The translations under genes and the position numbers were made by a program. From a virus: a DNA stretch of 64,000 nucleotides. Where the stretch lies: the IMG/VR virus record IMGVR_UViG_3300020192_000009, positions 34,504 through 98,503 of that record; one strand, given 5' to 3'. Of this stretch, positions 26,360 through 56,784 are shown one piece after another. The notes beneath the pieces were generated by a model that saw only the letters and a list, made by a program, of their open reading frames with translations, was not told the origin of the DNA and ran no database searches. Each line of letters opens with the position of its first letter. The first letter of the stretch is position 1.

Positions 26360-26379
26360 GGGGCCAGCCTATCACACGT

Positions 26380-26763
26380 TCAAGTTTTCGTAGAAACCGT
26401 TCGCGTCAACGCCCATGTAACGCCGCCAAGTAAGCCGACAAACAAAGTGCCGTAAAGCAACGCCTCTGTGGCCCCGAGAGTCGCACCTTTATGTGCAGCC
26501 TTGTAAGCGGCTTTGGTTGCAGCTGTGGTCGCTGCTGTACCTGCGGCTTTACGGACCGCTGCTGTAATTGCAGGGATCGCAGCCTCACCGGCAGCCAAAG
26601 CCGAATTCATGACGGTCGCGATAATTTGCTTGGCCGTACTTGTAGAGATCAAAGCATTGCTAGCAAGATCTTTGACTTCGGCTACGTACGTCGCTTGTAG
26701 CTCAGGATCCATAAAGGGCGGTCCGTAGGGCCCATAACGCCCAAGCGATGCCGTAGCGAGCAT
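26380..26763 (-). CDS. Ala-rich membrane protein
   Basis: A 127-residue protein with a Gly/Pro/Tyr-rich start (RYGPYGPPFMDPE), a long Ala/Thr/Lys-rich amphipathic region (AAGTAATTAATKAAYKAAHK) and a C-terminal transmembrane helix (LYGTLFVGLLGGVTWALT). Tightly followed by the next leftward gene. Possibly a minor virion membrane protein. Confidence 0.45.
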   Translation of the reverse strand: MLATASLGRYGPYGPPFMDPELQATYVAEVKDLASNALISTSTAKQIIATVMNSALAAGEAAIPAITAAVRKAAGTAATTAATKAAYKAAHKGATLGATEALLYGTLFVGLLGGVTWALTRTVSTKT

Positions 26764-35681: not shown

Positions 35682-36732
35682 TGGGATTCTCGGTGTCTTC
35701 GACAGCTGCATTGCTTAGGAGATCGCGGAGCGACACAACAGGCGCACGCCCAGAATTGTGCATGGCAACGCGAGGGAAGTTATAGACATTTTCAGGAGCC
35801 TCAGCGGGCGCGTCAGGCACGACGGACACGACGGGCACGATAGCCAATTCAATTTGGCGTGTCTCAGCAGACGCTTCAGGTACAGGCACACTGCCGCGCT
35901 TTGGTGTTTTACGTGCAATCTTATCGGCTTTCAATGCGGCGTTGCTTGCTTCATGCGCCGCCACCCGTTCAGCTTTGCGTTCAGCTTTAATGCGCTCCAT
36001 TTCGCGAGGTACTGCGAAATTGCACAACGTATCGAGCCGCATGTCGAGTTGCGGTCCTGTGACAGTTTCAGCGAGCACGGCATCCAAAGCTTCTTGCACA
36101 ACCGGCGTCATGGGATACGTCTTTAGAAATATCTCAATCTTGGTTGCTGCTTTAGCGTGTGCTTTTACAATCGCTTTATCGTTTTTGTCCTGGACCTTGC
36201 CCTGTTCTTTGACGATCTTGGTTGCCGCCTTAACAGCCACCTTCTCGGCCTGTTTAAACTCTTTGTCGCGGGCCTTACTCGCCTCTTGCGCATCTTTGTG
36301 CCACACCTTCCAAGGGGGCACGACGCAAAACTGCGCCACGACGTTTTGCAAGTCATGCGCTAGCCCGGGGAACGCTGCATGATGCGCAAGCATCGAGTCT
36401 TCCCACAACCCGCCTACGGGGCCTTCTTCAGCTTCCCAACGTTGGATATCGGCTTGGCAGTTGTGCGCGATCTTAACCAACAGAGGATCCGCAACAGCTT
36501 CGCGAAGCGCAACCATGACGGACTCTGGCAATGTGGGCCGCCACAAACTGATTGCGCGAATAGCGGTTCCAATACCGATCCATGTAATTCGCCCGTCAGG
36601 CGCCCATTCCAAATCGAAGCCTAAAGCGCCCCATGCGCGGCATTCGGCAATCATCAGCACAACAGCCTCAGCGGCTGCGCCCGGTACGGTAAAAACACCG
36701 CTATCACCGGTCTGTAAAGGTGTTGGTGTCAT
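35662..36732 (-). CDS. DEDD-type 3'-5' exonuclease domain protein (exonuclease part of split polymerase)
   Basis: This 356-residue protein carries Exo I GFDLEW (Asp40, Glu42) and Exo II HNCQADIQ (Asn91, Asp95) followed by HDLQNVVAQFCVVPPWK, exactly the order in phage PolA exonuclease domains. It then leaves the fold: residues 145-356 are a long Lys/Ala-rich coiled coil and an acidic tail. Exo III (Y-x3-D) is missing here but is present at the start of the polymerase at 32449. Proofreading may be reconstituted in trans. It overlaps UDG by ATGA. Confidence 0.75.
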   Translation of the reverse strand: MTPTPLQTGDSGVFTVPGAAAEAVVLMIAECRAWGALGFDLEWAPDGRITWIGIGTAIRAISLWRPTLPESVMVALREAVADPLLVKIAHNCQADIQRWEAEEGPVGGLWEDSMLAHHAAFPGLAHDLQNVVAQFCVVPPWKVWHKDAQEASKARDKEFKQAEKVAVKAATKIVKEQGKVQDKNDKAIVKAHAKAATKIEIFLKTYPMTPVVQEALDAVLAETVTGPQLDMRLDTLCNFAVPREMERIKAERKAERVAAHEASNAALKADKIARKTPKRGSVPVPEASAETRQIELAIVPVVSVVPDAPAEAPENVYNFPRVAMHNSGRAPVVSLRDLLSNAAVEDTENPNDDTNT

Positions 36733-37826
36733 GACAAGTCTTCCAGTGCAGTTGCTGTTAGTTCAATGAACAGATCACGATTACCAACGCGTATCGCAAT
36801 TGCGCGTAGTGTAGGCAAAATATCAGGATTCGCGTCACAGAACAGCGAAAAAGCGACTTCTGGCGTTGCTTCGTTCGCTTCTGGGATCGCTTCTGTGGGT
36901 GCTTCGTTTACGACATCGACAGCCACATCTGCAGACTCTTGCGGAGACAACGCCGCCGCAAGGCTTCCCACAATTTCTGCAAGGCCAGCAATTGCCTCAT
37001 CTGTAATCGGCATGTCAACGGGGGGCGCCGCCACAGGCAAAGGTGTTGCCGTGATCTCAAATGCGACCGGCACAGCCAACACAATGCTTTGTGGTGGCAA
37101 CGCAAACACAGGTGGCCGCAATGGGCCGGGCTCGATAAACACGGCAATATCGTCCGACCATTCAGAAGCAAGCGTGCCGTTTGCGATATGGAACGCCTTT
37201 ACAATGTCTGCTTCGAGAAACAGCATTTGCGCGTCCATATTCATTTTTTGTTTACCGCCCCCTTCTGTGCCTTCACCCGCGCCACCGCGAATGATTGCGC
37301 CTGGGTGAATGGACGTGACAACAGGCAACCCCGGAAACGCGGGCGATTGTTGAACGGTGCCGCGTGCATCCGAAATTGACGTTGTTTGCAACGCCATGGC
37401 ACCCATTGCAGCACGGCCTAGGGCGAGTACTGCAGTTGGCGCGGCCATACGAATCTCTTGCTCTACACGTGGCCTGCAACAAGCCAAGGCAACAATATAA
37501 GCGTTATCGTCGCGGGGCCGCGGGCACAGCAAAGCATTCGTCGTCCAGACAATTTGACGATCAATGCCGTGATTGCGCAAAACACGGTTAAGCTCTTGCC
37601 CCGCGGGGCCTACGAACGGATACCGTTGCGTGATCTCTTCCGTACTTGGGCTATCCCCAAGAATCAGCAAACTGCCACGCGCACCAGCGCCAGGAACGGC
37701 AACACGAGGTGCACCATTGATGGCTACGGGGCAAGAGCCACACTTAGGGGAATTTTCAGGTCCCCTGTACAAAATCACACGGCCATCCTCATCGCGATCA
37801 GGCCCGCGTGTTTGCGGCGTAGTCAT
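36729..37826 (-). CDS. Fe-S uracil-DNA glycosylase (family 4/5-like) with C-terminal extension
   Basis: This 365-residue protein has the UDG fold: LLILGDSPSTEE near 54-64, PFVGPAGQELNRVL near 70-83 and the HPG motif with His174 (SIHPGAII). Four cysteines (29, 32, 101, 116 or 117) match the 4Fe-4S pattern of family 4. It would remove uracil from DNA. The C-terminal about 160 residues are acidic and Ala/Val-rich, not part of the family. ATG 37826 overlaps the previous stop as ATGA. Confidence 0.8.
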   Translation of the reverse strand: MTTPQTRGPDRDEDGRVILYRGPENSPKCGSCPVAINGAPRVAVPGAGARGSLLILGDSPSTEEITQRYPFVGPAGQELNRVLRNHGIDRQIVWTTNALLCPRPRDDNAYIVALACCRPRVEQEIRMAAPTAVLALGRAAMGAMALQTTSISDARGTVQQSPAFPGLPVVTSIHPGAIIRGGAGEGTEGGGKQKMNMDAQMLFLEADIVKAFHIANGTLASEWSDDIAVFIEPGPLRPPVFALPPQSIVLAVPVAFEITATPLPVAAPPVDMPITDEAIAGLAEIVGSLAAALSPQESADVAVDVVNEAPTEAIPEANEATPEVAFSLFCDANPDILPTLRAIAIRVGNRDLFIELTATALEDLS

Positions 37827-38686
37827 TTCACACCGTCCCGTGCGAGGCGCCGACGCCACGTTGCGACTTTCACAAACAAAGCGCAGGCCTCAATGTGGTT
37901 TTCGTCCATGGTTTTTAACTTATCCTCGAAATCTGCGGGCATGATCTGAATTGATTCTTCGGGGTTACCCGCGTTGCCCTCAAAAGCGGGCATCAACAAC
38001 AAGAAAGGTTCAAGCGGGCCTTCGACAACAGCCTGTGCCACGCAAAACCGACAACCGACAACAAACTCAGTGTGTTCATCACACTTCCAAGCCGGGGCCT
38101 GTACGTAAACGCTTTTCGAGGTACGCGGCAACGCATCGGCTGCGTCGCTGCCTTCAGCATCAGCGTCAGCATCGGCGTCGGCTTCATCGTCGTCTTCCAC
38201 AGCGAGGTCTCGGGGATCGACGCGTTTACCGGCCAAAGTGTCTATGGCTTCCAGGATGCGGCTCCCACCTTTGCCATCAATATGTTGCGTCTTTTCGATC
38301 AACTTAGCGTGGACCAACTCTTGCGGCGTTAACGCACGCGAACACGCAATAGCTGCAACGTTCGCAACCGTTGGCAACGCACATCCATAAGTGTTGTGGA
38401 CCAAACACCAACGATTTGAAGGCGCGTAGCAAGGCAACGCAACACCAGAGCCCGCCATATTATCGCGTAACGTGCGCACGTCTCCGGGGGTCATGCCGCC
38501 TAAAGAGACAGCGCCTGTGCAACCGAGATTCACAATGTCGATGGCTGTACGACAACCAAGCTCTTGCAATTTTGCAACAACAGAAACACGCAATATTTCA
38601 CGCGCATCAGGATCCAACGCCAATCCCGAAGCAAACGGTAGATCTTCTAACAAGCGGGAGTCTTCAAGCATATCGCCAATGGCCAT
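37823..38686 (-). CDS. Hypothetical replication-operon protein with acidic linker
   Basis: A 287-residue protein. Residues about 30-75 (REILRVSVVAKLQELGCRTA, then GGMTPGDVRTLRDNM) look like a small helical domain reminiscent of RNA polymerase alpha C-terminal or HhH folds. A DADADADAEG acidic linker follows. The C-terminal part has KCDEHTEFVVGCRFC, possibly a zinc knuckle. Start ATG 38686 has GAGG upstream. It is the first gene after a terminator. Confidence 0.5.
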   Translation of the reverse strand: MAIGDMLEDSRLLEDLPFASGLALDPDAREILRVSVVAKLQELGCRTAIDIVNLGCTGAVSLGGMTPGDVRTLRDNMAGSGVALPCYAPSNRWCLVHNTYGCALPTVANVAAIACSRALTPQELVHAKLIEKTQHIDGKGGSRILEAIDTLAGKRVDPRDLAVEDDDEADADADADAEGSDAADALPRTSKSVYVQAPAWKCDEHTEFVVGCRFCVAQAVVEGPLEPFLLLMPAFEGNAGNPEESIQIMPADFEDKLKTMDENHIEACALFVKVATWRRRLARDGVK

Positions 38687-41644: not shown

Positions 41645-41881
41645 TTAATCAGGCCAAGCGGCTTCAGCGGCAGCGTCCATAGGGTCTTGCAAATCGAATT
41701 TTTGCGCCAACGCTGCTCGCAGATTCACACGGCCTGTTTGTGTAGACACGATTTCAACAGCGTTGCTTTGCGGATCCCGCAACGCGACGATCATGTCTGT
41801 AACGCCAGCTTGTTGCGTTAGCTGTGCAATTTGGGCGATCAGCGCCGCGATTCGCGGAGTAACGGTAGCGGGCCTTGTCAT
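41645..41881 (-). CDS. Small hypothetical protein
   Basis: A 78-residue protein (ALIAQIAQLTQQAGVTDMIV) with a good AAGGA site upstream. It is the last gene before the terminator. No recognised domain. Confidence 0.5.
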   Translation of the reverse strand: MTRPATVTPRIAALIAQIAQLTQQAGVTDMIVALRDPQSNAVEIVSTQTGRVNLRAALAQKFDLQDPMDAAAEAAWPD

Positions 41882-41892
41882 GGGATACGTCC

Positions 41893-42288
41893 TTACGTAA
41901 TGATTTTGCTTTTCGGCACCGCAGGTTCCAAAGGTGCGGTTCCCAACAGTTTACCAGACACTTCTTGCGCAGCGCTAATAGCCGCAAAAGCCGCCGTCGC
42001 GTACTTCACTTGTGTATCCCGATCCAAGTCCCCCCAATCAATATCGACAGCGATTGGCAAGGCCATGAACAGCGCCCGCGCTGCCGCCGCAATTGCTTTC
42101 GCGTCCAACCCCTGAAGCATCTTCAAAATGCCACCGGCAGGCCCATCTGGCACATTGGCTTTTACCCGCAATACCGGCGCCCCTCCGGGAGGCGTGAACC
42201 CGTAGGCCACCAGCGCGGCGATGCCGTGCTCTTCCGCGTGGCGCAGGAAGCTAATAACCAAGGGATCAGGGTCTGCTTTAAAGGTCAT
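41893..42288 (-). CDS. Ala-rich hypothetical protein
   Basis: A 131-residue protein with an alpha/beta start (FLRHAEEHGIAALVAYGFTP) and an Ala-rich helical middle. Function unknown. It follows the paralogue family in the operon. Confidence 0.5.
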   Translation of the reverse strand: MTFKADPDPLVISFLRHAEEHGIAALVAYGFTPPGGAPVLRVKANVPDGPAGGILKMLQGLDAKAIAAAARALFMALPIAVDIDWGDLDRDTQVKYATAAFAAISAAQEVSGKLLGTAPLEPAVPKSKIIT

Positions 42289-42338: not shown

Positions 42339-43019
42339 TCAAAGGCCGGGGAGCGTTGGTGCCGTGTTCCACACAAATGCGTTGCAGTAAAGCTGCAATC
42401 CCCGCATAAAAACGGGTGTGCAATGCGCACGCACACGAGCGTAATATGGCAGCACACGCCGGTCTAGGTTTACCCCTTCCACGGCGCCTCCCACACACGT
42501 AGCGTCCCACGCAATCCTGACTACTTGCTGCATGTCGATGCTGCCAACAGACGTGACAACGGGCATGCGAAACCAAATTTGAAAGTAGTTGGCATATCGA
42601 AGCACTTGGTAAGCCTCTGCCTCTGCGCCAAGGATACGCGAAAAAAGCACCAATATAAAAGCGCGCGCAGCGGTCATACGCGCATACGTGGGATCCGGTG
42701 GAACTGGAAGGGGTGGAAAATGACTGCGCCGTGTCTTAGCGACCTGCACAAGGCCCGCGATACGCACGCCCAAATGTGTGTGGCAAGTGATGCCCCCAAG
42801 TGCATGCATCGCTTTATGCGCCGCCGTTGTGGGCGCTGGGCAATTGAAGCGAACGTAAGTGACATAGTGCCCACCGTAGCAGCGACGCGCTGAACGTCGC
42901 GGACGATACCTACCAAACAACCAAACAACATGTTTGCCTTCAGGATGGAACGCGCAAGCTGCTTCAAACGTTCCGAAACAATGCAATTTTGTGCGTAACC
43001 GCGGCTTTGAAGCTTTCAC
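42339..43019 (-). CDS. Paralogous family member P1
   Basis: A 226-residue protein starting at GTG 43019, overlapping the previous stop as GTGA. It has the family marks ACAFHPEGKH, then FNCPAPTTAAHKAMHALGGI followed by TCH. In P1 the two motifs are separated by an Arg-rich insertion (RRSARRCYGG). The C-terminal domain is diverged. Function unknown; see the finding on this family. Confidence 0.65.
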   Translation of the reverse strand: MKASKPRLRTKLHCFGTFEAACAFHPEGKHVVWLFGRYRPRRSARRCYGGHYVTYVRFNCPAPTTAAHKAMHALGGITCHTHLGVRIAGLVQVAKTRRSHFPPLPVPPDPTYARMTAARAFILVLFSRILGAEAEAYQVLRYANYFQIWFRMPVVTSVGSIDMQQVVRIAWDATCVGGAVEGVNLDRRVLPYYARVRAHCTPVFMRGLQLYCNAFVWNTAPTLPGL

Positions 43020-43669
43020 GCTTGCCACTGGCGCATCACAACGCGTTTCTCCCGGTTGAACATCGTCTCCCCTTTGTGGTACTGCTGCGTATACCGCAAC
43101 ATCCGCACGAGTTGTAATTGCGGTAAAGGGTAGTTTGTATTCAACCAAGCATAATCCGAAACCGATAATGATTGCACCGGAAGCGCATGCCGCCAATCTG
43201 TGTAGGTTTTGTCACCAATGTGAACGGGCGTTGTCGCAAAGTAGAAAATCGATCCACGCTGACCCTTCCGTTGCAACGTACCTTTAAACGTCAAGCCTTC
43301 ACCACTCCCGCTAACGATATGGAGCGTGAACCGTGATCCATCACGGTGTTTGCCGTTATACTGCGATTGCAAATAGCATTGCAGAAGGTTGAGCAACGAA
43401 TCGTCTTCTGCAAGTTTTCGTGTTGCACGCACTTTGCGAAGTGTCTCCTGGCGCGTGCGCAAATATACGCGAACAGCTGTACGGCAAACTACGGCCCCCA
43501 ACGCTGCAGCCGTACGGCTAGCGGCAGCATTTTCACACATACAATTCCAATCAATAAAACGCACCATAAAATAGGTACTGTTTGTTGGCGTGTAATGTAA
43601 CGTGACCGCATGCGAGGTTGCAGGGAAAGGTGCAAACACGCAAGGAATCTTCAATGCAAGCTGGTTCAT
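43016..43669 (-). CDS. Paralogous family member P2
   Basis: A 217-residue protein. N-terminal marks are IPCVFAPFPATSHAVTLHY, then DWNCMCENAAASRTAAALGA and VVCR. The C-terminal half contains RDGSRFTLHIV and WLNTNYPLPQLQLVRMLRYT, which align with the same parts of P3. It is linked to both neighbours by four-base stop/start overlaps. Confidence 0.7.
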   Translation of the reverse strand: MNQLALKIPCVFAPFPATSHAVTLHYTPTNSTYFMVRFIDWNCMCENAAASRTAAALGAVVCRTAVRVYLRTRQETLRKVRATRKLAEDDSLLNLLQCYLQSQYNGKHRDGSRFTLHIVSGSGEGLTFKGTLQRKGQRGSIFYFATTPVHIGDKTYTDWRHALPVQSLSVSDYAWLNTNYPLPQLQLVRMLRYTQQYHKGETMFNREKRVVMRQWQA

Positions 43670-44286
43670 AAAACTTCCCGATCAAATGCACGTTGTACGT
43701 AGCGCACTAGCAAATCCAAACGCAATTGCCCCAAATCGCAATTGGCGTTTAACCAACGTTCTGCGGTGCCATGCACCCATGGCGTGGACCAATGTGTTGT
43801 TGGGAAATGTTTTGGCAAACAAGGAAACCTTAGCCGAATAGGCAACGTCGCCGTGCCGATGCAAAGATCGATTGCAAGCGCCACGTGTAACACACCGTCA
43901 ATGTACACCGCACGTAGCCACATTTGCAAAGTTGAACCATCGGCATACGTTGTTGCATACCGTTTTTGCAACTGCCGATTTACGAATGCAAGCACACAAT
44001 GCGGACGCGTGGAAGCTACGGTGTCTAAGAGAGTTACACGAACACGCGGTAACCGAATGTGCTGTGCCACAAGCGCGCGACATGTGGCTTTCTGGTTATG
44101 TAACGCATCGACAACACGCGCAGCTTTTGAGGATTCACACGGACAATTCCAAACAATGCGATGCGCGTAACTGCGACGCGAAGCGAACAGTAAATACTGT
44201 AGTTCCACCGAATGCGTACCGAAAACACACTCAAGCTGTAACGGTATTGCCATCCGCTCTATGACAGGATCATGTGGGCGCGGCAT
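43666..44286 (-). CDS. Paralogous family member P3
   Basis: A 206-residue protein with LECVFGTHSVELQY, then VWNCPCESSKAARVVDALHN and TCR. C-terminal ADGSTLQMWLRAVYIDG and WLNANCDLGQLRLDLLVRYV align with P2, showing that the second domain is also shared. ATG 44253 is a possible shorter start. Confidence 0.7.
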   Translation of the reverse strand: MPRPHDPVIERMAIPLQLECVFGTHSVELQYLLFASRRSYAHRIVWNCPCESSKAARVVDALHNQKATCRALVAQHIRLPRVRVTLLDTVASTRPHCVLAFVNRQLQKRYATTYADGSTLQMWLRAVYIDGVLHVALAIDLCIGTATLPIRLRFPCLPKHFPTTHWSTPWVHGTAERWLNANCDLGQLRLDLLVRYVQRAFDREVL

Positions 44287-44299
44287 GCAAAGGCCTTTG

Positions 44300-44956
44300 C
44301 TAGGCGTACAACGCCTCGAAGCGTTTGTGGCGGCCTATGCACTTGCTGAGATTTTCAATAGCGTATTGAAAGGTCGTCCATGCATCCAGTGTAACAAAGA
44401 CTGCAGATTCACGGTCTGTTGAGTGCCACCCATAGCTAACACTGTAGCTCCATTCAAGGTATTCGTTAGTTTCCCAAAAAAGACAACCTTGCATCGTGAA
44501 TTCACCAAACAAAGCCCCGTAGTCTCTGCAGCAACGTACCGTTGGCGGCTCGACCACCGTACATGCGGCGGGAAATATACGTTGTTGTATCTGTAGGATG
44601 TACTTACTTGCAGCTTTAAAAAACTCGTGCGACACAGGGTCTTTTAACGGCGCAACACGCTGGTGTGTAGATTTGTCTTTCAAGGCGGCCCGCACAGTTC
44701 TACGACAACATTGCATGCCCCCGAGTGCCATCGCAACGGTAGCTGCCGTATTACTTGTACAAGGACAATTCCAAGTGATAGCGCGGACCAAGTTATCTGA
44801 AATTTGCGCACCCTTCACAATGTGCAACGTAATATCGTGAACTCCATTGGGCGCAAAGTCACAACGGATATCGCTGACAACAACCCTGTCAAAACGGTCT
44901 GTGGTGCGTGTCACGCACCAACGGAAGTCGCTACGTACCATAGGTTTAAGAAGCAT
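44300..44956 (-). CDS. Paralogous family member P4
   Basis: A 218-residue protein starting in overlap with P5. It has IRCDFAPNGVHDITLHI, then TWNCPCTSNTAATVAMALGG and CCRR. The C-terminal part is Cys- and aromatic-rich (VRCCRDYGALFGEF). ATG 44956 chosen; 44941 and 44989 are alternatives. Confidence 0.65.
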   Translation of the reverse strand: MLLKPMVRSDFRWCVTRTTDRFDRVVVSDIRCDFAPNGVHDITLHIVKGAQISDNLVRAITWNCPCTSNTAATVAMALGGMQCCRRTVRAALKDKSTHQRVAPLKDPVSHEFFKAASKYILQIQQRIFPAACTVVEPPTVRCCRDYGALFGEFTMQGCLFWETNEYLEWSYSVSYGWHSTDRESAVFVTLDAWTTFQYAIENLSKCIGRHKRFEALYA

Positions 44957-45596
44957 CACATGACTCCTGTGCGTAGTAACGCGCGACATAGCGCCCTACA
45001 ATTTCAACTTGAGCGTACAACTCGGGGCCCAACAGTGCCTGCGCCAAACTCGTGGATGAGTCTGTGTGCATCGACGCCGCCACCTGTGCCAAACTGAATA
45101 CGGTATAAAATCCATTTACACAATTGTATCTAATTGTCGCGGTCCGAACTATTGGCGGTTCCCACGCCATCCGCGTATCCAAATCAATGCATAAATCACG
45201 ATTGCAAACAGCGCGTGCCAACCGCCATTCCGATGCTGCTGGTCGGTAACGTGCTTCCAGTGCGAACAAACACTGCGAAATAAACGCCGATTTACTGTGC
45301 GCCAACTGTGCCATTCGCACCGCAGCTTGTTGGCGTAACGCGCCTACACGGAGATCCCGGCAAGTGGGCAACCCAAGGGCTGTTAACGTCTCAGCGGCAA
45401 CAGCGCTTGCGCATGAACAATTCCAATTTACAGAACGTATGTAATACGGAAATTCTCGCCCAACTTGGCGCCTAGCGCTGTACGGCACGCTAGTGAAAAA
45501 CACATCGTGATAGCCTTTGGCTGCAAAGGCACAAGCAACGTTGCGAAACACACCCATGTATGGTTTTTTCCCAGCAAAGTGAATTTGGAGATCCAC
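44946..45596 (-). CDS. Paralogous family member P5
   Basis: A 216-residue protein with a GTG start three bases after the J-domain gene stop. Marks are VACAFAAKGYHDVFF, then NWNCSCASAVAAETLTALGL and TCR. The C-terminal domain contains LCIDLDTRMAWEPP. Function unknown. Confidence 0.7.
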   Translation of the reverse strand: MDLQIHFAGKKPYMGVFRNVACAFAAKGYHDVFFTSVPYSARRQVGREFPYYIRSVNWNCSCASAVAAETLTALGLPTCRDLRVGALRQQAAVRMAQLAHSKSAFISQCLFALEARYRPAASEWRLARAVCNRDLCIDLDTRMAWEPPIVRTATIRYNCVNGFYTVFSLAQVAASMHTDSSTSLAQALLGPELYAQVEIVGRYVARYYAQESCDAS

Positions 45597-45599
45597 AAC

Positions 45600-46247
45600 C
45601 TAACCCCAAGGTGGCGTGGCTGCGTCGTCGTTGTAATAGAGTCGTGCGACAGCGTACGCAACATTGATCTCTGCCATCAATGCGGCGCTCCCACCCACAT
45701 CGGGATGGTGCTTACGCGCAAGTTCATGCATTTTTTCAGTTACACTTGCAAGTCGTACAGGAGGCGACTCAAAGCCTAAAACGACGTACCAAAGCTTAGG
45801 CGCATCGGCGGCGGTCAGCGCCTTGTAACCGGTGTACGCTTGCTCTTGTCGGCCTACTCCATAGCGTTGCTGTGCACGCATCGCTGTTAGGTGCGCAGCC
45901 ACCGCATTAAGGTTGTCTGCAACACGCTTCCAACGATCACAAGGAAACACAACAGACGTGTTTGTAATGCGAAAGTAGATGGCAACGCCCGTGTCACTCG
46001 GCTCGCGTACGCTGCTGTAAGGCAAGCCATCACGCCGCACAGGAATGTTTGTAGACATTACGATTGCAGTTGCCTTGAGCTTGCGCAGTTCATCACGCAA
46101 ACGCTGCAATGCAACCGTGATTGTCAATTCACGACCATGCGTGCTGAAGCGCGCGACTTGCTTACGATGCGCAGGCGTACGGCCTTCCCCCGCAGGCCAT
46201 TGCAAAGGGTACGCGGTGGTGAGTGTTTCTGTATCTTTGTTTTTCAT
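45600..46247 (-). CDS. Protein with C-terminal J-domain
   Basis: A 215-residue protein. The C-terminal 65 residues form a DnaJ-type J-domain: LWYVVLGFESPPVRLASVTE, then ELARKHHPDVGGS with the HPD motif at 181-183 needed to stimulate Hsp70 ATPase. The N-terminal domain (YPLQWPAGEGRTPAHRKQVA, then MSTNIPVRRDG) is a conserved phage/plasmid module of unknown role. It could recruit host DnaK for the proteins of this operon or for replication. Confidence 0.8.
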   Translation of the reverse strand: MKNKDTETLTTAYPLQWPAGEGRTPAHRKQVARFSTHGRELTITVALQRLRDELRKLKATAIVMSTNIPVRRDGLPYSSVREPSDTGVAIYFRITNTSVVFPCDRWKRVADNLNAVAAHLTAMRAQQRYGVGRQEQAYTGYKALTAADAPKLWYVVLGFESPPVRLASVTEKMHELARKHHPDVGGSAALMAEINVAYAVARLYYNDDAATPPWG

Positions 46248-46259
46248 GAGTACTTGTCC

Positions 46260-46487
46260 TTAATTTTCTTTTTGCGCACGCTCGCGACAACACTGACGTG
46301 CAATTGCCCAATCCAGGTACACTGCAACCAAAAAACAGGGCAACCAACAGAGACTGAGCAATCCACAAAACAAAATAGTGGGCCCGGCTTCTTTGCGTAC
46401 ACCATTAGTGCCGAATGCCAGCCAGAAGAAACCGATTGCCCATGCCACGTACCAGCCGCCGAGAACCCACCCCAAGGTTGCGAACAT
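46260..46487 (-). CDS. Small membrane protein
   Basis: A 75-residue protein with two hydrophobic segments (LGWVLGGWYVAWAIGFFWLA and ILFCGLLSLCWLPCFLVAVY) and a basic Cys-containing tail. ATG 46487 lies two bases after the resolvase stop. Function unknown. Confidence 0.5.
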   Translation of the reverse strand: MFATLGWVLGGWYVAWAIGFFWLAFGTNGVRKEAGPTILFCGLLSLCWLPCFLVAVYLDWAIARQCCRERAQKEN

Positions 46488-46489
46488 AT

Positions 46490-46990
46490 TTAAAGTCTCC
46501 AAGTTTCTGTGCCAGGGGCCTTGTATTGAATCATCCAAGCGGTAGCGACACCAAGCGCGGCCCATGCATCGCTTTTAATGCCGTAGGTAGGGCCGGGATT
46601 CTTTTTGGTGCCTGGCGCTCCCCACAAATCAATCAAGCGTTGTCGAATCACGCTGTCATTGACGCCTTTGGTTTGTTTGCACAAAGCGACTTTGACTTGC
46701 GCGCGCGTAAGCCGTGTGTATAGGTCTTCGCGATTGGTGTCCAGTTGCGTGAATGCGTCGATGAAGCGCCCGATCCAAACACAGGTTTCAAACACCGTGG
46801 CACCGACTGCCATGCCGTAGGATGCAATCATTTCGATTGCCATGTGTGTGGTGGGTCGAGGCAACCGCGCAAGGTTCGCGTGCAACACCTCATTTGGTAG
46901 TTTGCCAAACGCAAGGATCCTGCGCGTTCGTACGTTTACGATTACCCAACCTGATTCGGTAGCGCCGGGATCTACTGCGATTATGTCCAT
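46490..46990 (-). CDS. RuvC-like Holliday junction resolvase
   Basis: A 166-residue protein with an RNase H fold: IIAVDPGATESGW (Asp7), AIEMIASYG (Glu53) and a C-terminal acidic motif in KSDAWAALGVA. These match phage RuvC/A22-like resolvases. It should cut branched DNA during recombination or before DNA segregation. It lies inside the paralogue operon, probably fused there by gene shuffling. Confidence 0.8.
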   Translation of the reverse strand: MDIIAVDPGATESGWVIVNVRTRRILAFGKLPNEVLHANLARLPRPTTHMAIEMIASYGMAVGATVFETCVWIGRFIDAFTQLDTNREDLYTRLTRAQVKVALCKQTKGVNDSVIRQRLIDLWGAPGTKKNPGPTYGIKSDAWAALGVATAWMIQYKAPGTETWRL

Positions 46991-46998
46991 GTTGATCG

Positions 46999-47109
46999 TT
47001 ACCCTTTTGCCCTTGAAAATACGTACGCATAAGGCGTTTGCATCATGCGCGCCTCACCGCCTCGGAAGCCACCTCGGAAGTACATACGTGTAAGGCGTTT
47101 GCATCATAA
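46999..47109 (-). repeat. Duplicated 3' end of paralogue P6
   Basis: A 61-bp offset direct repeat. The coding tail MMQTPYTYV at 47109-47083 recurs as MMQTPYAYVFSRAKG-stop at 47046-46999. The core AAGGCGTTTGCATCAT occurs at 47032-47047 and 47093-47108. Because 61 is not a multiple of three, the duplication gave P6 a new end (LPRWLPRR-stop at 47054) and left the old tail as a remnant nine bases from the resolvase start. Confidence 0.75.
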
Positions 47110-47728
47110 GTACATTGGCAACGTCTGCGAAAGCATTAAATGCACGAATAATGCGCGGTAGACACGCTGCCATCTGTAGATCCACAACAGCTAGACCTTC
47201 AATTGTTGCCTGTTGCTTTTCAACACAATTAGCAACGTCCATTCCTGTATCGAGAGTACGCCCCCAAAAACAAAAACACGAAGCATCCGTGCCTAGCCCA
47301 ATACGCAAGCTCATAGTCAAAGCATCCTCCGCCCTTAAGCGCCATGACAGTCTCCTGGCGAAAATCACTGCATGGTCTACAAGGTTCGTTTCCAAAACAC
47401 GGGAAATGTACTTAACCAAAATGCGCTTACGGATTGCGATCAAATCATCAGGCTTTTGACTTTCGTAGCGTTGTCTGCGTAGCGCTATCAACGGGGCGCT
47501 GTCTCGGATATGCTTACGCCATGCCATTCGACAAGTGGCTTGTCCTAGGGCCGCCGCGACAACATGCGCAGCCTCGCTAGTTGCTTTGCAATTCCACTGA
47601 ACTGCGCCCGTGGTCGTCACATACGCAATACTGTGATTACCGCTGTCTGCAAAAGTACATGGAACGTGCAGCGTAAGCCATTGGTCCCGGTAGGTGCACA
47701 TTGATCCGCTTGTGGGTTGGTCGCGCAT
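47054..47728 (-). CDS. Paralogous family member P6, altered C-terminus
   Basis: A 224-residue protein with HVPCTFADSGNHSIAYV, then QWNCKATSEAAHVVAAALGQ and TCR. The last residues (PRWLPRR) come from a short duplication that shifted the frame. It starts in a TAATG overlap with P7. A start at residue 10 is possible. Confidence 0.7.
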   Translation of the reverse strand: MRDQPTSGSMCTYRDQWLTLHVPCTFADSGNHSIAYVTTTGAVQWNCKATSEAAHVVAAALGQATCRMAWRKHIRDSAPLIALRRQRYESQKPDDLIAIRKRILVKYISRVLETNLVDHAVIFARRLSWRLRAEDALTMSLRIGLGTDASCFCFWGRTLDTGMDVANCVEKQQATIEGLAVVDLQMAACLPRIIRAFNAFADVANVLMMQTPYTYVLPRWLPRR

Positions 47729-48006
47729 TAGCAGTCTTCTTTTGTAAAAATGGCGTCACTCAACCCCAAATACTTTTGAAATGTAGATCTACAAGTAACG
47801 CCCCCAAGCGCCACTGTTGTTGCATGCGCCACCTCATCGGTCACGGGGCATTGAAAATCCACAACCCCATAGTCAACGCTGAACCTCACAGCGTGCCCGT
47901 AGCCCTCGGAACAAAACCCACATTCAAGACTAGCGGAATTCCATTTAATAGACTCTAAAAGGCCCCACTCCAAGGAGCGTTTTTTGTGCCAGCGCCAAAT
48001 CATCAT
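47728..48006 (-). CDS. Paralogous family member P7, single-domain form
   Basis: A 92-residue protein with ECGFCSEGYGHAVRFSV, then DFQCPVTDEVAHATTVALGG and TCR, ending shortly after. It is the N-terminal domain alone, with a normal stop, so that domain must fold by itself. It overlaps both neighbours. Confidence 0.65.
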   Translation of the reverse strand: MMIWRWHKKRSLEWGLLESIKWNSASLECGFCSEGYGHAVRFSVDYGVVDFQCPVTDEVAHATTVALGGVTCRSTFQKYLGLSDAIFTKEDC

Positions 48007-48248
48007 GGTTGCTCCGAATCGTCCAAGCCTGCGTAAGGCCGCCACGTATGACGGCACGTCAATGCGCCTAACGCCATTGCGGTTTCGTGAACGGCATCAT
48101 CCTCCATGGGACAATTCCATTTCACCTGCTTACCGTCAGGGCTGTACTGTACAAGGTGTGAACCTGTGGGCGCGAATGTACACGGTGCTAAGACGCCATA
48201 CCAACCGTCAGTCACAAAGTAACGAGGCACAATGCCTGAAAGGCTCAT
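48003..48248 (-). CDS. Paralogous family member P8, single-domain form
   Basis: An 81-residue protein with LAPCTFAPTGSHLVQYS, then KWNCPMEDDAVHETAMALGA and TCR. The cleanest form of the family motif. Start ATG 48248 has AGGGGG upstream and follows the P9 stop by none (overlap). Domain-only like P7. Confidence 0.7.
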   Translation of the reverse strand: MSLSGIVPRYFVTDGWYGVLAPCTFAPTGSHLVQYSPDGKQVKWNCPMEDDAVHETAMALGALTCRHTWRPYAGLDDSEQP

Positions 48249-48901
48249 AGGGTTCCCCCTTGCACTAAGCTCCACACAGTATCGCCGTGGTGTTTCGCAT
48301 TATGAGTTACCAACATCGGTTGCAACATGCCTTCGAGACAAAGCTGTAGCTGTCCCCCACGAGGCACAGCCCAAGGTGAAGCATTCAGGAGGCTAGACAC
48401 TGTTGGGAAAATTTTCCAAACAACTGTTGTGGGCCTTGAGCCCTTTAAAGGCGCAATATGCATTTGCACTTTAAGCTGAAGACCCCAAGCATCGGGGTGT
48501 TTGGCAATCTGTAATTCGACCGGCGCCCAATCAATTTGAATATAGCTGTCAGCGATGCGCGTTAAGGCAGGCAAACACTTAGCGATTGCGTGTTTGCAAT
48601 GCATGCTCAAAATCAGAGATTGCCCATTAACAAGATCGTCAATGTAAGCGTATTGCGCGGCGAGGCGTGCATCTCTAAGCGCGCATGCAGCTGCATTTTT
48701 TTGCATGTAACGCGGCCACCAGTGCCTGCAAGTGAAGTGCCCTAGCGCGTTCATGGTTTTGTGCGCGCTCTCATCTGCGATGGGGCAATTCCATTTGATG
48801 TTGCGCGTGCCAATCGTATGCCGCACATGGTGCGCCACGCCATTCGGTGCGTATGCACATGGAATGATTAGCTTGACGCTTTTGGCACGCGGTTTTTTCA
48901 T
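48245..48901 (-). CDS. Paralogous family member P9
   Basis: A 218-residue protein with IIPCAYAPNGVAHHVRH, then KWNCPIADESAHKTMNALGH and TCR. The C-terminal domain contains VELQIAKHPDAWGLQLKVQM. First family gene after the helicase, joined by an ATGA overlap. Confidence 0.7.
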   Translation of the reverse strand: MKKPRAKSVKLIIPCAYAPNGVAHHVRHTIGTRNIKWNCPIADESAHKTMNALGHFTCRHWWPRYMQKNAAACALRDARLAAQYAYIDDLVNGQSLILSMHCKHAIAKCLPALTRIADSYIQIDWAPVELQIAKHPDAWGLQLKVQMHIAPLKGSRPTTVVWKIFPTVSSLLNASPWAVPRGGQLQLCLEGMLQPMLVTHNAKHHGDTVWSLVQGGTL

Positions 48902-50439
48902 GTGCCTAACACCTGCGCTGCAATGGCGTCAAAGCCGAGTCCAAGGGAACGCTGGAAATCTTCTTTCACGCCCAGCGCTTCAATCAACTTGGTTTCGATT
49001 AGTGTGTCTGCGTACAGATAGACAACAACGTGGGGGCGCGCTGGACTGAACGTGCGCATTTCCGCCTGAAGCACGTAGGCGGGGATCCAATCTAGTTCAA
49101 CGAAAATTGCGTAATCACTTGCGCTCAGATCGATTGCAACACCACCAGCCGCAATGCTGGCAATGATCGCGCATGGATTAGGGGTTGCCGTGAACATCGT
49201 AATTTGATCGACATCGGAACCTGTACGGTAACGGTACGTCTCGAAACCTGGAAGCACACGCCGCGCGATCTCAGCGGCAACCGCATCTGCAACTTCAGTG
49301 TGCCACGTCCATAAGACAACTTTGGGATGCCCATTTGCCAAGGCATGTTCAACGCCATCAACAGCGGCTTTGATTTTGAGAGACGCGAGCTTGCGTCGTA
49401 GTGTCGCAAGATAGCCCGCAACTGTATTGGTGCCGCGAGCAAGACACGCGAGCATTGCAGCGCTTTCGACACTAGCGAGCTTGGAAGGGGGCACGGCAAC
49501 AGGTTCAATCACGCGTGTTGTGGGCGGCAGCTGTGGCGCTACATCATGCCAAGTGCGCCGCAACATAATGTGCTGCAACCGCGCTGCGAATTCATCGGCA
49601 TTGGAAAGGCCGTTGTATTGCCAGCCGTGAGCACCTGGCTGTGCGTCACAATAGTGTTTAGCAAAATTGAAATGTGTGTCCCACGCACCGGGGCAGATAA
49701 GGTTTAGCAATGCATACAGGCTGTCAGGTTTCGACCACATAGGCGTGCCGGTCAGGCCTATGATGCGTTCGGCGCGGCCCGCGAGAACCACAACGGCACT
49801 GGTGCGTTTAGCTTTGCGGTTTTGCATCGCATGAACTTCATCAAGTACGAGGGTGGCGATTGTTTGGCCGGTGGCACAAAGAAACCGTGTCCAGGCGTCC
49901 ACCACGTCAAAGTGCACGAAATAGGCGGGATATCCCAATGGAAGAGCCGTATTCGCAATGTCTTGGGTGCCCGTCAGCACGAGGGGGCGGAAGCCGTGAA
50001 CGCGCTCAACCCACGAAACCCATACATCGCGGCTTGCCAAAGGACCCACAATAACGAGGGATCCGTCTTTGGGATCGTGCGCATGACATGTAAGCGCAGT
50101 CTTACCTAAACGCATTTCATACGCAAGAAGAACGCCCTGCCTACTTAATAGGTAGGGGAGATCCGCCGCTTGGTAAGGGCGCAGCGTGACACCCGGAACG
50201 CTGCCGAGCAAAACACCGGCTGAAAGCGGCACACCTGCGCCCAGTGATGCCACGACGGAAGGGGGCAGCAAAGGTGTGTGCGAACGGTGAAACTTGACGC
50301 GGAAAACACCAGCGGGGTTAACCGTCCAATACATGCCGGGATGACGGCCATATTGCGTACGCCATTCAATTGGAGGATTGTCCCACACGAACCAATCGGT
50401 ACGGATAGGGCGGATATGTGTTGCAGGCGCCACGAGCAC
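48898..50439 (-). CDS. SNF2/DEAH-type superfamily 2 helicase
   Basis: A 513-residue protein from GTG 50439 (a TTG at 50457 is also in frame). It has LRPYQAADL (Q-motif-like), motif I LAYEMRLGKTA, motif II VLDEVHAMQN, motif III LTGTPMWSKP, and C-terminal motifs VVLWTWH, ASIAAGGVAIDLSASD and ILQAEMR-like VLQAEMRTFSPAR. This order fits phage SNF2-like DNA translocases. It heads the operon of P1-P9, so those proteins may act with it on DNA. A TATAAT box lies at 50462-50457. Confidence 0.85.
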   Translation of the reverse strand: MLVAPATHIRPIRTDWFVWDNPPIEWRTQYGRHPGMYWTVNPAGVFRVKFHRSHTPLLPPSVVASLGAGVPLSAGVLLGSVPGVTLRPYQAADLPYLLSRQGVLLAYEMRLGKTALTCHAHDPKDGSLVIVGPLASRDVWVSWVERVHGFRPLVLTGTQDIANTALPLGYPAYFVHFDVVDAWTRFLCATGQTIATLVLDEVHAMQNRKAKRTSAVVVLAGRAERIIGLTGTPMWSKPDSLYALLNLICPGAWDTHFNFAKHYCDAQPGAHGWQYNGLSNADEFAARLQHIMLRRTWHDVAPQLPPTTRVIEPVAVPPSKLASVESAAMLACLARGTNTVAGYLATLRRKLASLKIKAAVDGVEHALANGHPKVVLWTWHTEVADAVAAEIARRVLPGFETYRYRTGSDVDQITMFTATPNPCAIIASIAAGGVAIDLSASDYAIFVELDWIPAYVLQAEMRTFSPARPHVVVYLYADTLIETKLIEALGVKEDFQRSLGLGFDAIAAQVLGT

Positions 50440-50505
50440 CCCTATACATAACGCCAATTATATAACAGTGTCAAGCGCGTTACGTAGAGTTTACCGCCGA
50501 AACGC

Positions 50506-50964: not shown

Positions 50965-52411
50965 ATGCAACAACATGTAGAACGAATGAAAAATGATCCG
51001 AAGGTGCAAAACGCTCTACTGAATCAAGCGATTCGGAACGACCGCCGCACCACTCGAAAGCCCACCAGCCGTATCGAGTTGGGCTACCAGGAAGAGATGC
51101 AAACCGCTCGTATTTGGGATCGCGAAATGTCGCGACTTTTGGCGATGCATGCAGCGAATCCGTTTAACGATGCCGATGAACGTGAAATTTGCAGCACTAT
51201 TGAAAAACGTTTGCTGTATGCAAATACGCACTTTGCAAAGTTCACTTGCACTCATGGATTGCCAACCGAACGCTGCGTGTTGTGCGTTCGCGCATTTGTA
51301 GCGCAAGACCATCAGCTGTCATGCGTATCGGCGCACCGGGAGGCAGCAACGCATGCCGACCGCGTAGGCGCTTCCGTTGCGTCCGAGATTGAGCTTGGCG
51401 GCAAAGCCTTCACGCTAGTGGCAACACACGCTGATGATGCGGACGCCACAATCACACAAAACGAATTGTTGGCCTTACGCAAACTCGGTGTAGCGCGCGG
51501 CGTGGACACATGGATCTTGCCAGATAGCACAGTGGTCGCTGTGGTCGTTATTGAGGCTTCTGATGAATTAAATCTTATAGGGATCACATGTAATTCAATT
51601 CGTACGCAACCCTTGAGCGATACCACGCAGCTTCGTCGCTTCTATCGGCAGTACCCTGAATGTTTGAAACGTTTAACAGTGCAACGTTGCATGACTGTGT
51701 TCTTGGAACGCAAACGACGTGCCCGCGAAAAAACTAAAGGCACCAGTGTGAACCAAGCTGCCCGTAACGGTATGGCAGCACATGCAGAAATACTCGCCGC
51801 CTTAGCGCCAGAGTTAAAGCCACGTAAGACACGTACGCCCAACATACGAATGAGGCGCAGCAATGGAATCTTTCGGCAACGTGGCCTGCGTATGGCAATC
51901 GCAAGCACTTGTATCGAACACACAAGCCCGGAGTTAAAACAAGCAGTTGCAACACAAGTTGCGCTTGCACAAGCACTTGAAAGTACGTTTACACGTGAAG
52001 ACGCGATCAGCCTTGAAAGCTGGACACGTAATCATGAATTGAATGTCATGCAGCTTGGCGCTGTAGCTTTGCAGGAAGGCCGTACAGGCACCGCTAACAG
52101 GACGGCAATCTTGCTAGGCGTGCTTCGTGGCCAACGTGCGAAGGCCCACAAGCGCAGCAAGCATGCAATGGGTGCCCGCACCCCCGCCGACAATCATATC
52201 GTGCCCCTGCCCGCGTTTGCGAACCACACATGCAAAACGCACAACGCACCCGTTGTGTTCCTTGGCATTGTGAATATCGGTCGCGACGCCACTAACGTTG
52301 CTGCGCTAAACGCGCTGTAACGCCTTTAAATTTACGGTTCACACAACCCTTTCCACCACTACTACCACTTACTCACTTCCGTTCATACCGGGGGAGGGGG
52401 GAGCTACGTCC
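50757..52411. mobile_element. Possible mobile unit: unknown gene between 21-bp inverted repeats
   Basis: The 21-bp arm starting GGACGTAGCT at 50757-50777 is the reverse complement of 52391-52411 at 20 of 21 positions. Between them lies one gene (50965-52320). No target-site duplication is clear at the borders, and the protein is not a transposase that I recognise, so mobility is only inferred. Confidence 0.4.
50965..52320 (+). CDS. Unknown 451-residue basic protein
   Basis: A 451-residue protein with no recognised domain. A Cys-rich segment CTHGLPTERCVLC near residues 93-105 may bind zinc. Residues 140-195 form a compact alpha/beta-like part (DTWILPDSTVVAVVVIEAS). The C-terminal half is basic and helical (VFLERKRRAREKTKG). 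It stands alone between inverted repeats and directly before repeat array 2, transcribed toward it. A role in acting on DNA or on repeat RNA is possible but unproven. Confidence 0.6.
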   Translation: MQQHVERMKNDPKVQNALLNQAIRNDRRTTRKPTSRIELGYQEEMQTARIWDREMSRLLAMHAANPFNDADEREICSTIEKRLLYANTHFAKFTCTHGLPTERCVLCVRAFVAQDHQLSCVSAHREAATHADRVGASVASEIELGGKAFTLVATHADDADATITQNELLALRKLGVARGVDTWILPDSTVVAVVVIEASDELNLIGITCNSIRTQPLSDTTQLRRFYRQYPECLKRLTVQRCMTVFLERKRRAREKTKGTSVNQAARNGMAAHAEILAALAPELKPRKTRTPNIRMRRSNGIFRQRGLRMAIASTCIEHTSPELKQAVATQVALAQALESTFTREDAISLESWTRNHELNVMQLGAVALQEGRTGTANRTAILLGVLRGQRAKAHKRSKHAMGARTPADNHIVPLPAFANHTCKTHNAPVVFLGIVNIGRDATNVAALNAL

Positions 52412-52507: not shown

Positions 52508-53147
52508 AAAGGCTGTGCAATGCCTTTCAAAATTGCAACGCGGGCATCGTGCCAAAGGCTGTGCAATGCCTTTCAAAATTGCAACACAGCCAGCCGCGCG
52601 ACGAGGTTGGCGCGCGCGACAGTGCCAAAGGCTGTGCAATGCCTTACAAATTGCAACATACCGACACAGCGGTATTAGCCGCGCTCATGTCGGCGTGCCA
52701 AAGGCTGTGCAATGCCTTTCAAAATTGCAACCAATACTGGGGCGGGAGCTATCATCGCCAACTCGGGTGTCGCGAAGGCTGTGCAATGCCTTACAAAATT
52801 GCAACAGACGCGAGAAGGCGCACTACATACGGTCGCAAAGGCTGTGCAATGCCTTTCAAAATTGCAATAAGACGCGGCTTTCACCAAAGGCTGTGCAATG
52901 CCTTACAAAATTGCAACTGCTCGATTTGGACGAAGGCTGCGCAATGCCTTTCAAAATTGCAACAAGACGAAAGGCATCGTACCAAAGGCTGTGCAATGCC
53001 TTAGAAATTGCAACTGATTCGCAGCTGCGTTAGTTGCGGCAACAAAGGCTGTGCAATGCCTTTAAAATTGCAACGAATAAAAGGAACGAAAGGCCATGGC
53101 TGGTGCAAATTGCAACAAAGGCTGTGCAATGCCTTTAAAATTGCAAC
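52508..53147 (+). repeat. Repeat array 2: 11 units plus one decayed unit
   Basis: Units start at 52508, 52554, 52627, 52700, 52774, 52837, 52886, 52932, 52984, 53044 and 53117; a decayed one ends at 53116. Same consensus and strand rule as array 1. Intervening sequences are 14-42 nt. Variants TTCAAAA, TACAAAA, TACAAA, TAGAAA and TTAAAA after GCCT are mixed along the array. A leftward terminator at 53189 shields it from antisense transcripts. Confidence 0.9.
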
Positions 53148-53473
53148 ACGCGTACTCGGCACAGTGTCAACAACTTTGGACAGAAAAAAAGCGGCCAAAC
53201 TTTCGTCTGGCCGCTTGCAATGGGCGGAGTACACAGTGATCGGGATGCAACTCCCTTAACCTATTAACACATAGAATGCTTCGATGTAGGATATCGAAAC
53301 GGAAGATCCGCTTTGCAAAGGTGAATCTGCCAGTTCCTTAACAGCGCGTCAAGTCTTTTGAACGTTAAAACGGTCAAAAAAGAGGGGATACGTGCGTCTT
53401 GTACACGACGCTAGTTTGTGGTTAAGATACCCAAAAGGCCATGTAACGCCTTTCAGAATTGCAATAAATCAGT
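53148..53473. other. Intergenic region with leftward terminator and a decayed repeat
   Basis: About 325 bases without a gene. It holds the leftward terminator (53189-53216), an AT-rich stretch and a decayed repeat unit at 53434-53465 that keeps the first stem (AAAGGC/GCCTTT) but has lost the second. I see no convincing promoter. Confidence 0.5.
53189..53216 (-). terminator. Intrinsic terminator, leftward
   Basis: AAGCGGCCA (53189-53197) pairs with TGGCCGCTT (53208-53216); on the leftward strand it is followed by a run of seven T. It would stop transcripts from the genes at 53752-54493 before they enter array 2. Confidence 0.8.
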
Positions 53474-54582: not shown

Positions 54583-56784
54583 ATGGCAGTCGGCGAAAGC
54601 GCGTCCCCAAAAGGTTCACCGGATCTAAGTAAATTGCAGGCAATGCAAGATCCGATGGTTGTTGTCACCAAAGGCCGGAAAGGTGCAAGTCGCTCAATTC
54701 TTGCGGGACAACGGCTTAAAGTGCCGGATATCCTGGCATTGCATAAAGATTTGCCATTGAGCTTTGGCCCTGGCATTTACAAATTTGAGGTTACCGATGC
54801 TGCTGGCGATGGTACCGGCAAAGACGCATGGACGGCCCAGCTAGGTGGCGAAGTCGGGGAAATCCCAACGCTTCCTGTGGTTTCTAATGAATTCGGCGAA
54901 GGAGCTTTTCCAATGACTGTGGTTGCTAATAGCGTGACACCTCCGACAATGAGCGCCGCCAATGCGGCTGCAATGGGCGTCCCAATGCCCCCCGCGCAGC
55001 CGACAATGCCAATAGGCATGTCAATGCCCACGTCAATGAACGGCGGCATGGGTGGCATGTCCCCCGGCGCAATGGAAGGCTCCCGGCAAATCGGCCCTGG
55101 CTGGTGGTACAACGAAACGCTAGGCATGCTGATTAACCGTAATGGTGAGTTGCACGCTTGGCGCACTGGCATGCCGCTGCCAGGCTCTGCCGTTGCTACG
55201 CCACCTGCAGCATCACCATGGGGCGCTGGCGCTATGGCTGGCGGACTTCCCCCTTGGGGCACAATGCCGGTCACCGAGGATCCTAGACTTGTGCAACTTG
55301 AGGCGCAATTGCGTGAAGCACGCGAAGACGTGAAAGAGCGCGCACGGCAAGCCGAGTTGCAGGTTTTGCGTGATGCAATGACCAAACTCGCAGACGCGTT
55401 TTTAGCAAAGCCCACGGGCCCCTCTGAAAACGAACGCGCGTTGCAGGCCCAAGTGGAAGCACAACAGCGTGCCACCGAGACACTACGCCAAGAAAGTGCA
55501 CAGCGTGAGTTTGCGCGCCAACAGGACGACAATCGTCGCCGCGACGAAGATGCACGACGCGTTGAATTCAATGCGGTTGTTGCAAACCTACAAGCGCAGA
55601 TCAAAGAGGGGAACACCTCTAAGGTTGATCCGATGATTACCATGATCACGCAAATGATGAATGCACAACAGACGGCAAGCACCACAATGCTCCAAGCCGT
55701 GCAAAACGCGGCGCTTAATGGTGCTGAAGTTGCTCGTGAAAGTAATCGTCAAATAATTGAGCGGTTAAGCAGTTCACAAATGACACCTGAGCGCATGATG
55801 GACGTGCTCAAGGTTGCAAAGGATCGTGGGCCTGAAGCCGAAATGGGCAAGCTACAAGTTGGCATGTTCAAGGATTTGCTTAACATGTCGCAAGACATGA
55901 ACAGGCAAATCATCGACGCCAATTCAGGTGGACAACAGCCTGTGTGGGTGGGCTTGCTGCAACAGACGCTTGAAAAGGGCGGGGCCATTGCGCAACAACT
56001 TGCATTGACGCGAGCCAATGAAGTTGCGCGCCAGGAGCGCCAAGAACGTGAACAGCGGAGGCAAGACGCTATTGAACGGCAACGACGCCTGGAACAAACA
56101 ACAACGCCTGCGCAAGCACGCACGCAAATCGCTGCAGTCGCGTCTGCCAAAGCACCCGCTAAAGCAGTTGACGCGCGTACATCCAGCCAAACGGAACGTG
56201 ATGCCATTGCAGCACGTATGTTCCCCACGGCTACACAGGGCAGTGCTGCAGCCGAGCGTGATGCCGCAGCCGCTACAGTCTTTCGAGCCGCTGACCATGC
56301 GCCCCTGCATGCCGTAAGTGACATCGAAGACGGGGAAGACGAAGAGTATGAAGATGGGGAAGACGAAGACGAGGAAGACGAAGAAGACGAAATTGTAGCG
56401 GCCAAAGAACTTGGTGTAGACGTAGCCAAAATCAAGCCAATGGACATTTCCAAAGTCTCGCCTGCGGTGATCCGCAAGCAGATCAAAAAAGTGTCTGATG
56501 CTGATTTCTTCGGGGCGTCTTGGCCGCATGTGCAAGACCTACGCAAATCGATCATGGCTGGTGAGATTGAACCCGAAGCCGCAGCAACGTTTATTGCGCA
56601 AGCATGCGCGCAGCTGCAAAGCTTTGGGCAGGTGCCGCCTGCTGTGGAATTGCTTTTCACAGGGCACATTGACATTGCAATCGAGCGGTTAGCGCCCGAT
56701 GCACCTGCCAGGTTTCGCACACTCTTGATCGCTCTGGTGCAAGAAGGCATCGACAACGCTGCGCCGCCTGAAAGCGGCAACTAA
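54583..56784 (+). CDS. Large coiled-coil protein with acidic segment
   Basis: A 733-residue protein. The N-terminal about 110 residues are globular (MVVVTKGRKGASRSILAGQR, then FGPGIYKFEVTDAAGDGT), followed by a Met/Pro/Gly-rich linker (MPPAQPTMPIGMSMP), a WWYNETLGMLINRNG motif, a long Arg/Glu/Gln coiled coil (about 220-510), an acidic run of Glu/Asp near 580-605 and a helical C-terminal domain. The layout suggests a structural or scaffold protein such as an internal virion or DNA-packaging component; no family is recognised. Confidence 0.6.
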   Translation: MAVGESASPKGSPDLSKLQAMQDPMVVVTKGRKGASRSILAGQRLKVPDILALHKDLPLSFGPGIYKFEVTDAAGDGTGKDAWTAQLGGEVGEIPTLPVVSNEFGEGAFPMTVVANSVTPPTMSAANAAAMGVPMPPAQPTMPIGMSMPTSMNGGMGGMSPGAMEGSRQIGPGWWYNETLGMLINRNGELHAWRTGMPLPGSAVATPPAASPWGAGAMAGGLPPWGTMPVTEDPRLVQLEAQLREAREDVKERARQAELQVLRDAMTKLADAFLAKPTGPSENERALQAQVEAQQRATETLRQESAQREFARQQDDNRRRDEDARRVEFNAVVANLQAQIKEGNTSKVDPMITMITQMMNAQQTASTTMLQAVQNAALNGAEVARESNRQIIERLSSSQMTPERMMDVLKVAKDRGPEAEMGKLQVGMFKDLLNMSQDMNRQIIDANSGGQQPVWVGLLQQTLEKGGAIAQQLALTRANEVARQERQEREQRRQDAIERQRRLEQTTTPAQARTQIAAVASAKAPAKAVDARTSSQTERDAIAARMFPTATQGSAAAERDAAAATVFRAADHAPLHAVSDIEDGEDEEYEDGEDEDEEDEEDEIVAAKELGVDVAKIKPMDISKVSPAVIRKQIKKVSDADFFGASWPHVQDLRKSIMAGEIEPEAAATFIAQACAQLQSFGQVPPAVELLFTGHIDIAIERLAPDAPARFRTLLIALVQEGIDNAAPPESGN

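Follow-up and report, generated by a model that had tools for sequence, protein, structure and literature searches.

The stretch of viral DNA analysed here (the window, 64,000 nucleotides, bases 34504-98503 of the 98.5-kb virus record IMGVR_UViG_3300020192_000009) carries on its minus strand, between positions 42339 and 48901, nine open reading frames (ORFs), P1 to P9, all of which were confirmed. Sequence comparisons confirmed that these nine copies are a real homologous family, defined by a common N-terminal module some 55-60 residues long. Six columns of the module are invariant (C, H, C, A, L and C) and, under the refined gene models, it starts at residues 4-24 in every copy. P2 and P3 consist of the module only, and the seven other copies are long (206-226 residues). 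The original prediction, made from the DNA letters, had described nine cysteine-rich tandem copies behind an SNF2-like helicase and had quoted a consensus for them. The quoted motifs proved only approximate: the strict FAPxGxH is found in P2 and P6 only and P7 is shorter at the same place (CVFGTH), NCP is exact in five of nine copies and reads NCK, NCS, NCM or QCP in the remainder, and ALG and CR are each present in eight copies (CH replaces CR in P9).

The existence of the nine-copy set itself was borne out by leave-one-out profiles and by shuffling. A profile built from eight copies was run on the six-frame translation of the window in order to find the ninth. Each ninth copy was recovered, with expectation values (E) of 1.4e-9 to 2.1e-18, compared to 0.002-0.16 for the best segment outside the family. 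For each copy, the true scores (38-65 bits) exceeded the maximum of 18.7 reached among about 500 shuffles in which C and H were kept in place. At the DNA level, a pattern of the second half of the module matched five times in the window versus 0.00 expected, and the entire 98.5-kb record contains exactly nine copies. Each of the nine copies had a better codon score in its own frame than in shifted ones; the scores lay below those of conserved neighbours, and that of P3 was slightly negative. The best segment outside the family was the same with all nine profiles: 38 residues, out of frame, at 26375-26488 (-), with ALRHFVCRLTWRRYMG, resembling the end of the Cys module. This segment, which shares bases with the 3' end of a better ORF, is either a chance match or a relic.

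Predicted fold and presumed metal site of the module

AlphaFold2 models were built on the nine-row alignment for P2, in a 90-residue form, and for full-length P8. The P2 model has a predicted local distance difference test score above 90 across 50 residues and consists of a small β sheet (strands 19-22, 25-31, 39-45 and 50-53) and two helices (60-68 and 74-82), with C32, H40, C55 and C74 as putative ligands. The module of P8 is also confidently modelled, with the same order of elements: C10 follows strand 1, H20 opens strand 2, C43 follows strand 3 and C62 starts helix 2. Besides these C, H, C and C positions, no polar residue is invariant across the nine copies. Since the strand ends meet in an antiparallel sheet, all four ligands would lie at one end of the module, which fits a single four-ligand site. 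The proposal that three cysteines and a histidine could bind zinc is thus plausible, and the four residues most likely hold one zinc ion, as judged from the order of the strands rather than from coordinates. Each of the four stands alone in the sequence, and the two CxxC or CxxH knuckles of zinc ribbons and treble clefs were not found. Foldseek retrieved nothing from the PDB at E ≤0.001 (best E 0.37), no match to solved zinc-finger structures, and nothing from BFVD at E 0.001. The best BFVD match, A0A8A1VGB8, was not accepted (33% identity, E 0.067, template modelling score 0.31). The fold of the module is possibly new.

C-terminal parts, divergence and search for relatives

Homology was demonstrated for the N-terminal module only, and the end-to-end paralogy assumed originally could not be maintained. 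The C-terminal parts of the long copies comprise 122-149 residues, and leave-one-out profiles of these parts recovered none of the seven. Those of P7 and P8 are clearly alike (Z 5.4-8.6). The other pairs exceeded controls marginally with two of the three further scoring schemes (p 0.002-0.005, the pairs being non-independent), and with the third none did. Uniform length and marginal likeness fit an ancient C-terminal domain diverged past recognition, the alternative being unrelated domains. Between copies, identities in the module core range from 24 to 43%. The earlier suggestion of rapid diversification found no support in a dN/dS analysis: in most pairs synonymous divergence (dS) had reached saturation or could not be defined, and nonsynonymous divergence (dN) was lower than dS in every pair for which both were estimated. 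The duplications are therefore old, with no demonstration of recent diversifying selection.

The family was also described as unrecognised, and this stands: searches of many kinds for an unambiguous link with known families found none. No family match was accepted from Pfam, PHROGs, NCBIfam, PADLOC or the PDB sequences. Pfam, queried with the nine copies and two consensus sequences, gave nothing at E 1 except two spurious weak matches and no KilA-N or Bro-N domain, and the seven long copies matched no PADLOC model at E 1. One PHROG of unknown function, phrog_18256 (68 positions), aligned with residues 32-67 of P2 (E 0.009-0.018); it was ruled out, as only one of nine copies matches and the consensus sequences give no match. 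In tblastn searches, 50,697 phage records contained no relative of P1, the P2 core or the family consensus, and 72,556 plasmids searched with the P2 core gave none either; matches in a Xanthomonas plasmid and in mycobacteriophages (E 4-9) are due to chance, and one in Agrobacterium phage 7-7-1 (E 9) runs antisense to genes annotated there. Nor did DNA-pattern scans, four over 2.9 million viral contigs and one over 84,980 genomes, reveal any relative after rescoring with the profile, these collection scans requiring exact short patterns. The sole viral match of the first pattern falls within a tail-sheath-like gene but not in its reading frame, the viral matches of the three others (7, 62 new and 8) and 25 genome matches contain no credible module by profile, and the best genome match is antisense to a gene encoding 376 residues. 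Profile searches, which had no positive control outside this genome, were equally empty in 80 viral loci around homologues of the J-domain-like protein described below, in the 50 whole records behind them and three phages, and in 696 bacterial genomes from two phyla. The virus itself, a double-stranded DNA virus and most likely a bacteriophage, is very divergent: its polymerase reaches no more than about 26% identity with its best phage matches among those listed.

Viral proteins with KilA-N or Bro-N domains share an N-terminal domain, have variable C-termini and occur in multiple copies in large DNA viruses. A Cys/His motif is not known as a feature of these domains and, unlike them, P1-P9 have no Pfam match to either domain. 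The closest published parallel is Bacillus phage G, in which a phage-specific expansion of zinc ribbons reaches about 35 copies, proposed to be transcription factors or DNA-binding proteins (PMC7824862). Both cases show a lineage-specific, multi-copy, small presumed zinc module of unproven function in one phage. However, the ligands of P1-P9 are far apart and lack CxxC knuckles, and the nine genes belong to one coupled operon and have added C-terminal domains. No relationship to the phage G proteins was detectable by sequence: the family profile found nothing at E 1 in the whole 497-kb phage G record (JN638751.1), a record that offers no positive control. The sequence family is new, and possibly its fold; that a small module, presumed to bind metal, expands in a phage-specific manner has a precedent.

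The transcription unit and possible functions

The nine genes lie in a minus-strand unit with the following order (E values of P1-P9 are those of the held-out profiles; pI, isoelectric point):

48898..50457 (-): SNF2-type helicase, leading the unit (phrog_62, E 6.4e-58; PF00176, E 1.1e-15)
48245..48901 (-): P1, 218 residues, long, pI 9.7 (E 3.6e-17)
48003..48248 (-): P2, 81 residues, module only, pI 5.0 (E 2.1e-18); coupled ATG at 48248 taken as start, ORF extendable to GTG 48275
47728..48006 (-): P3, 92 residues, essentially module only, pI 5.8 (E 4e-12); coupled ATG at 48006 taken as start, ORF extendable to 48057
47054..47728 (-): P4, 224 residues, long, pI 9.4 (E 1e-17)
46490..46990 (-): RuvC-like Holliday junction resolvase (phrog_1770, E 3.2e-16)
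46260..46565 (-): small hydrophobic ORF, 101 residues (probably shorter), putative membrane protein from its sequence and coding score (0.087 vs 0.015 in the +1 frame)
45600..46247 (-): J-domain-like protein, 215 residues (phrog_9210, E 1.2e-42; HPD motif within HHPDVGG; weak Pfam DnaJ score, E 0.12), with homologues in 91 phage records
44946..45596 (-): P5, 216 residues, long, pI 9.0 (E 2.4e-14)
44300..44941 (-): P6, 213 residues, long, pI 8.5 (E 2.4e-17); start at 44941 from coupling, ORF extendable to 44989
43666..44286 (-): P7, 206 residues, long, pI 9.6 (E 1.4e-9)
43016..43669 (-): P8, 217 residues, long, pI 9.9 (E 1.8e-16)
42339..43019 (-): P9, 226 residues, long, pI 10.3 (E 1.7e-10); coupled GTG 43019 preferred to the unlikely TTG 43196 of the original prediction
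41893-42288 and 41645-41881 (-): two further small genes outside the family (ORFs, coding scores)
41613-41591 (-): terminator-like hairpin closing the unit (9 pairs and a T run, fold z -3.2)

The PHROG and Pfam matches confirm the identities of the helicase, the resolvase and the J-domain-like protein, and the layout is that of one operon shared with the family, as had been proposed. Overlaps were counted after refinement of the starts by start-stop coupling, some being read off coordinates. ATGA overlaps join the helicase to P1, P1 to P2, P2 to P3 and P7 to P8, TAATG joins P3 to P4 and GTGA joins P8 to P9, so that five of the seven within-family junctions overlap; with the refined starts, the claim that most copies are joined by ATGA or TAATG is true, one being a GTGA. 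Co-expression is supported by this coupling together with the strong hairpin at the end of the unit, and we infer from the layout that all these genes form one transcript.

We tentatively favour a reading in which P1-P9, most of them basic, are adaptors that carry a zinc module and act on nucleic acid together with the SNF2/RuvC branch. The small N-terminal module would have expanded within one virus lineage, folding as three antiparallel strands and two helices around one zinc ion through C, H, C and C and serving as a docking or folding unit for all copies. The C-terminal domain, similar in size between copies, would have drifted and given each long copy its own target or DNA or RNA preference, and the acidic, module-only P2 and P3 may act as partners or modulators. 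All nine proteins would be nucleic-acid-associated adaptors or accessory factors in the replication-recombination or the transcription programme of the virus, and the set looks like the virus's own related but specialised helper proteins. A nucleic-acid-associated role appears the most likely because the proteins are produced alongside the helicase, the resolvase and the J-domain protein, neighbours of DNA-transaction type, and it is consistent with the basic character of the seven long copies (pI 8.5-10.3) and with the published parallel of the phage G zinc ribbons. Several observations weigh against this reading. P2 and P3 are acidic, so that nucleic-acid binding need not be a property of the module itself, and pI is weak evidence because the RuvC and J-domain proteins next to the family are just as basic. 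Model confidence was low for the C-terminal half of P8, the absence of a CxxC knuckle is unusual for zinc ribbons, and there is neither a homologue with known function nor a structure match.

The nine proteins could instead be a host-takeover or counter-defence panel, in which the module docks on a common factor or merely folds and the divergent C-termini inhibit different host proteins. Multiple gene copies are a typical trait of conflict functions; here nine copies are present, their C-termini can no longer be aligned, and the family was confined to this virus in all searches made. We rank this alternative only slightly below the favoured reading. Against it, the genes stand in a helicase/resolvase/J-protein unit and not in a variable accessory island, PADLOC gave no match, and dS is saturated, hence no sign of recent positive selection. 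A more far-reaching proposal, which we hold to be rather unlikely, is that of an undescribed fold or metal-site module expanded nine-fold within one virus lineage into a modular array, in which a constant N-terminal unit binding metal is joined to differing C-terminal recognition domains; the array would be translated in one coupled set with the helicase and the resolvase and form a virus-specific replication or counter-defence machine.

Duplicated subunits might also occupy fixed positions in a hetero-oligomer, coupled translation supplying them in equal amounts. Start-stop coupling throughout the unit and the uniform length of the long copies (206-226 residues) despite their divergence agree with such an assembly, of which the two module-only copies could be caps, but no relatives were found to show that all nine are retained, and we consider it unlikely. 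Still less probable, by analogy with T4, is that the proteins are packaged in the virion and coinjected with the DNA, the module being a packaging tag. The T4 internal proteins IPI-IPIII likewise exist in several copies with a conserved N-terminus and a variable remainder (PMC9026906). However, their capsid-targeting sequence is short (about 10 residues) and is removed by cleavage in the prohead, whereas the N-terminal part common to P1-P9 is a modelled fold of 55-60 residues and the genes belong to a DNA-metabolism unit. Finally, opposite-strand overlapping ORFs are present, but a chance likeness of overlapping or antisense ORFs is refuted by the leave-one-out E values and the shuffles with fixed C and H; the in-frame codon scores of all nine copies and the start-stop coupling also speak against it.

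It is in orphan multi-copy families that combine a constant with a variable part that viruses develop new machinery or weapons. The present set is a clean one, with nine copies, a four-ligand signature and a confident module model that has no structural match. It makes testable whether one metal-binding unit serves as a common dock for diversified partners, P2 and P3 being natural controls, and the module signature can be used to find relatives of this very divergent virus.

Other features of the record

A 31-nucleotide repeat, AAGGCTGTGCAATGCCTTWMAAAATTGCAAC, forms arrays in intergenic clusters, with 47 core copies in the record. In the window it occurs at 2299-3008 (+), 29474 (-), 52509-53154 (+) and 57569-58491 (-); in record coordinates, the clusters lie at 33245-33767, 36804-37498, 63990-64058, 87014-87638 and 92085-93192. 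The arrays resemble CRISPR at first sight but are irregular: spacing is uneven (46-74 nucleotides in the 52.5-kb array) and orientation is opposite between clusters, and no cas gene was recognised and no Rfam match obtained in the window. The 52.5-kb array is flanked by two ORFs, 50965-52320 (+) of 451 residues and 54583-56784 (+) of 733 residues, neither of which has a significant Pfam, PHROG or PADLOC match. Among the ORFs scanned (window 1-32000 and further loci), no clear capsid, terminase or tail match was obtained, with one marginal tail-fibre match (E 0.006). Thymidylate synthase, thymidylate kinase, PAPS reductase and DNA methyltransferases were clear among the same ORFs, and a uracil-DNA glycosylase-like protein (36729-37859 (-); PF03167, E 1.9e-15) is encoded in the replication unit of this virus.

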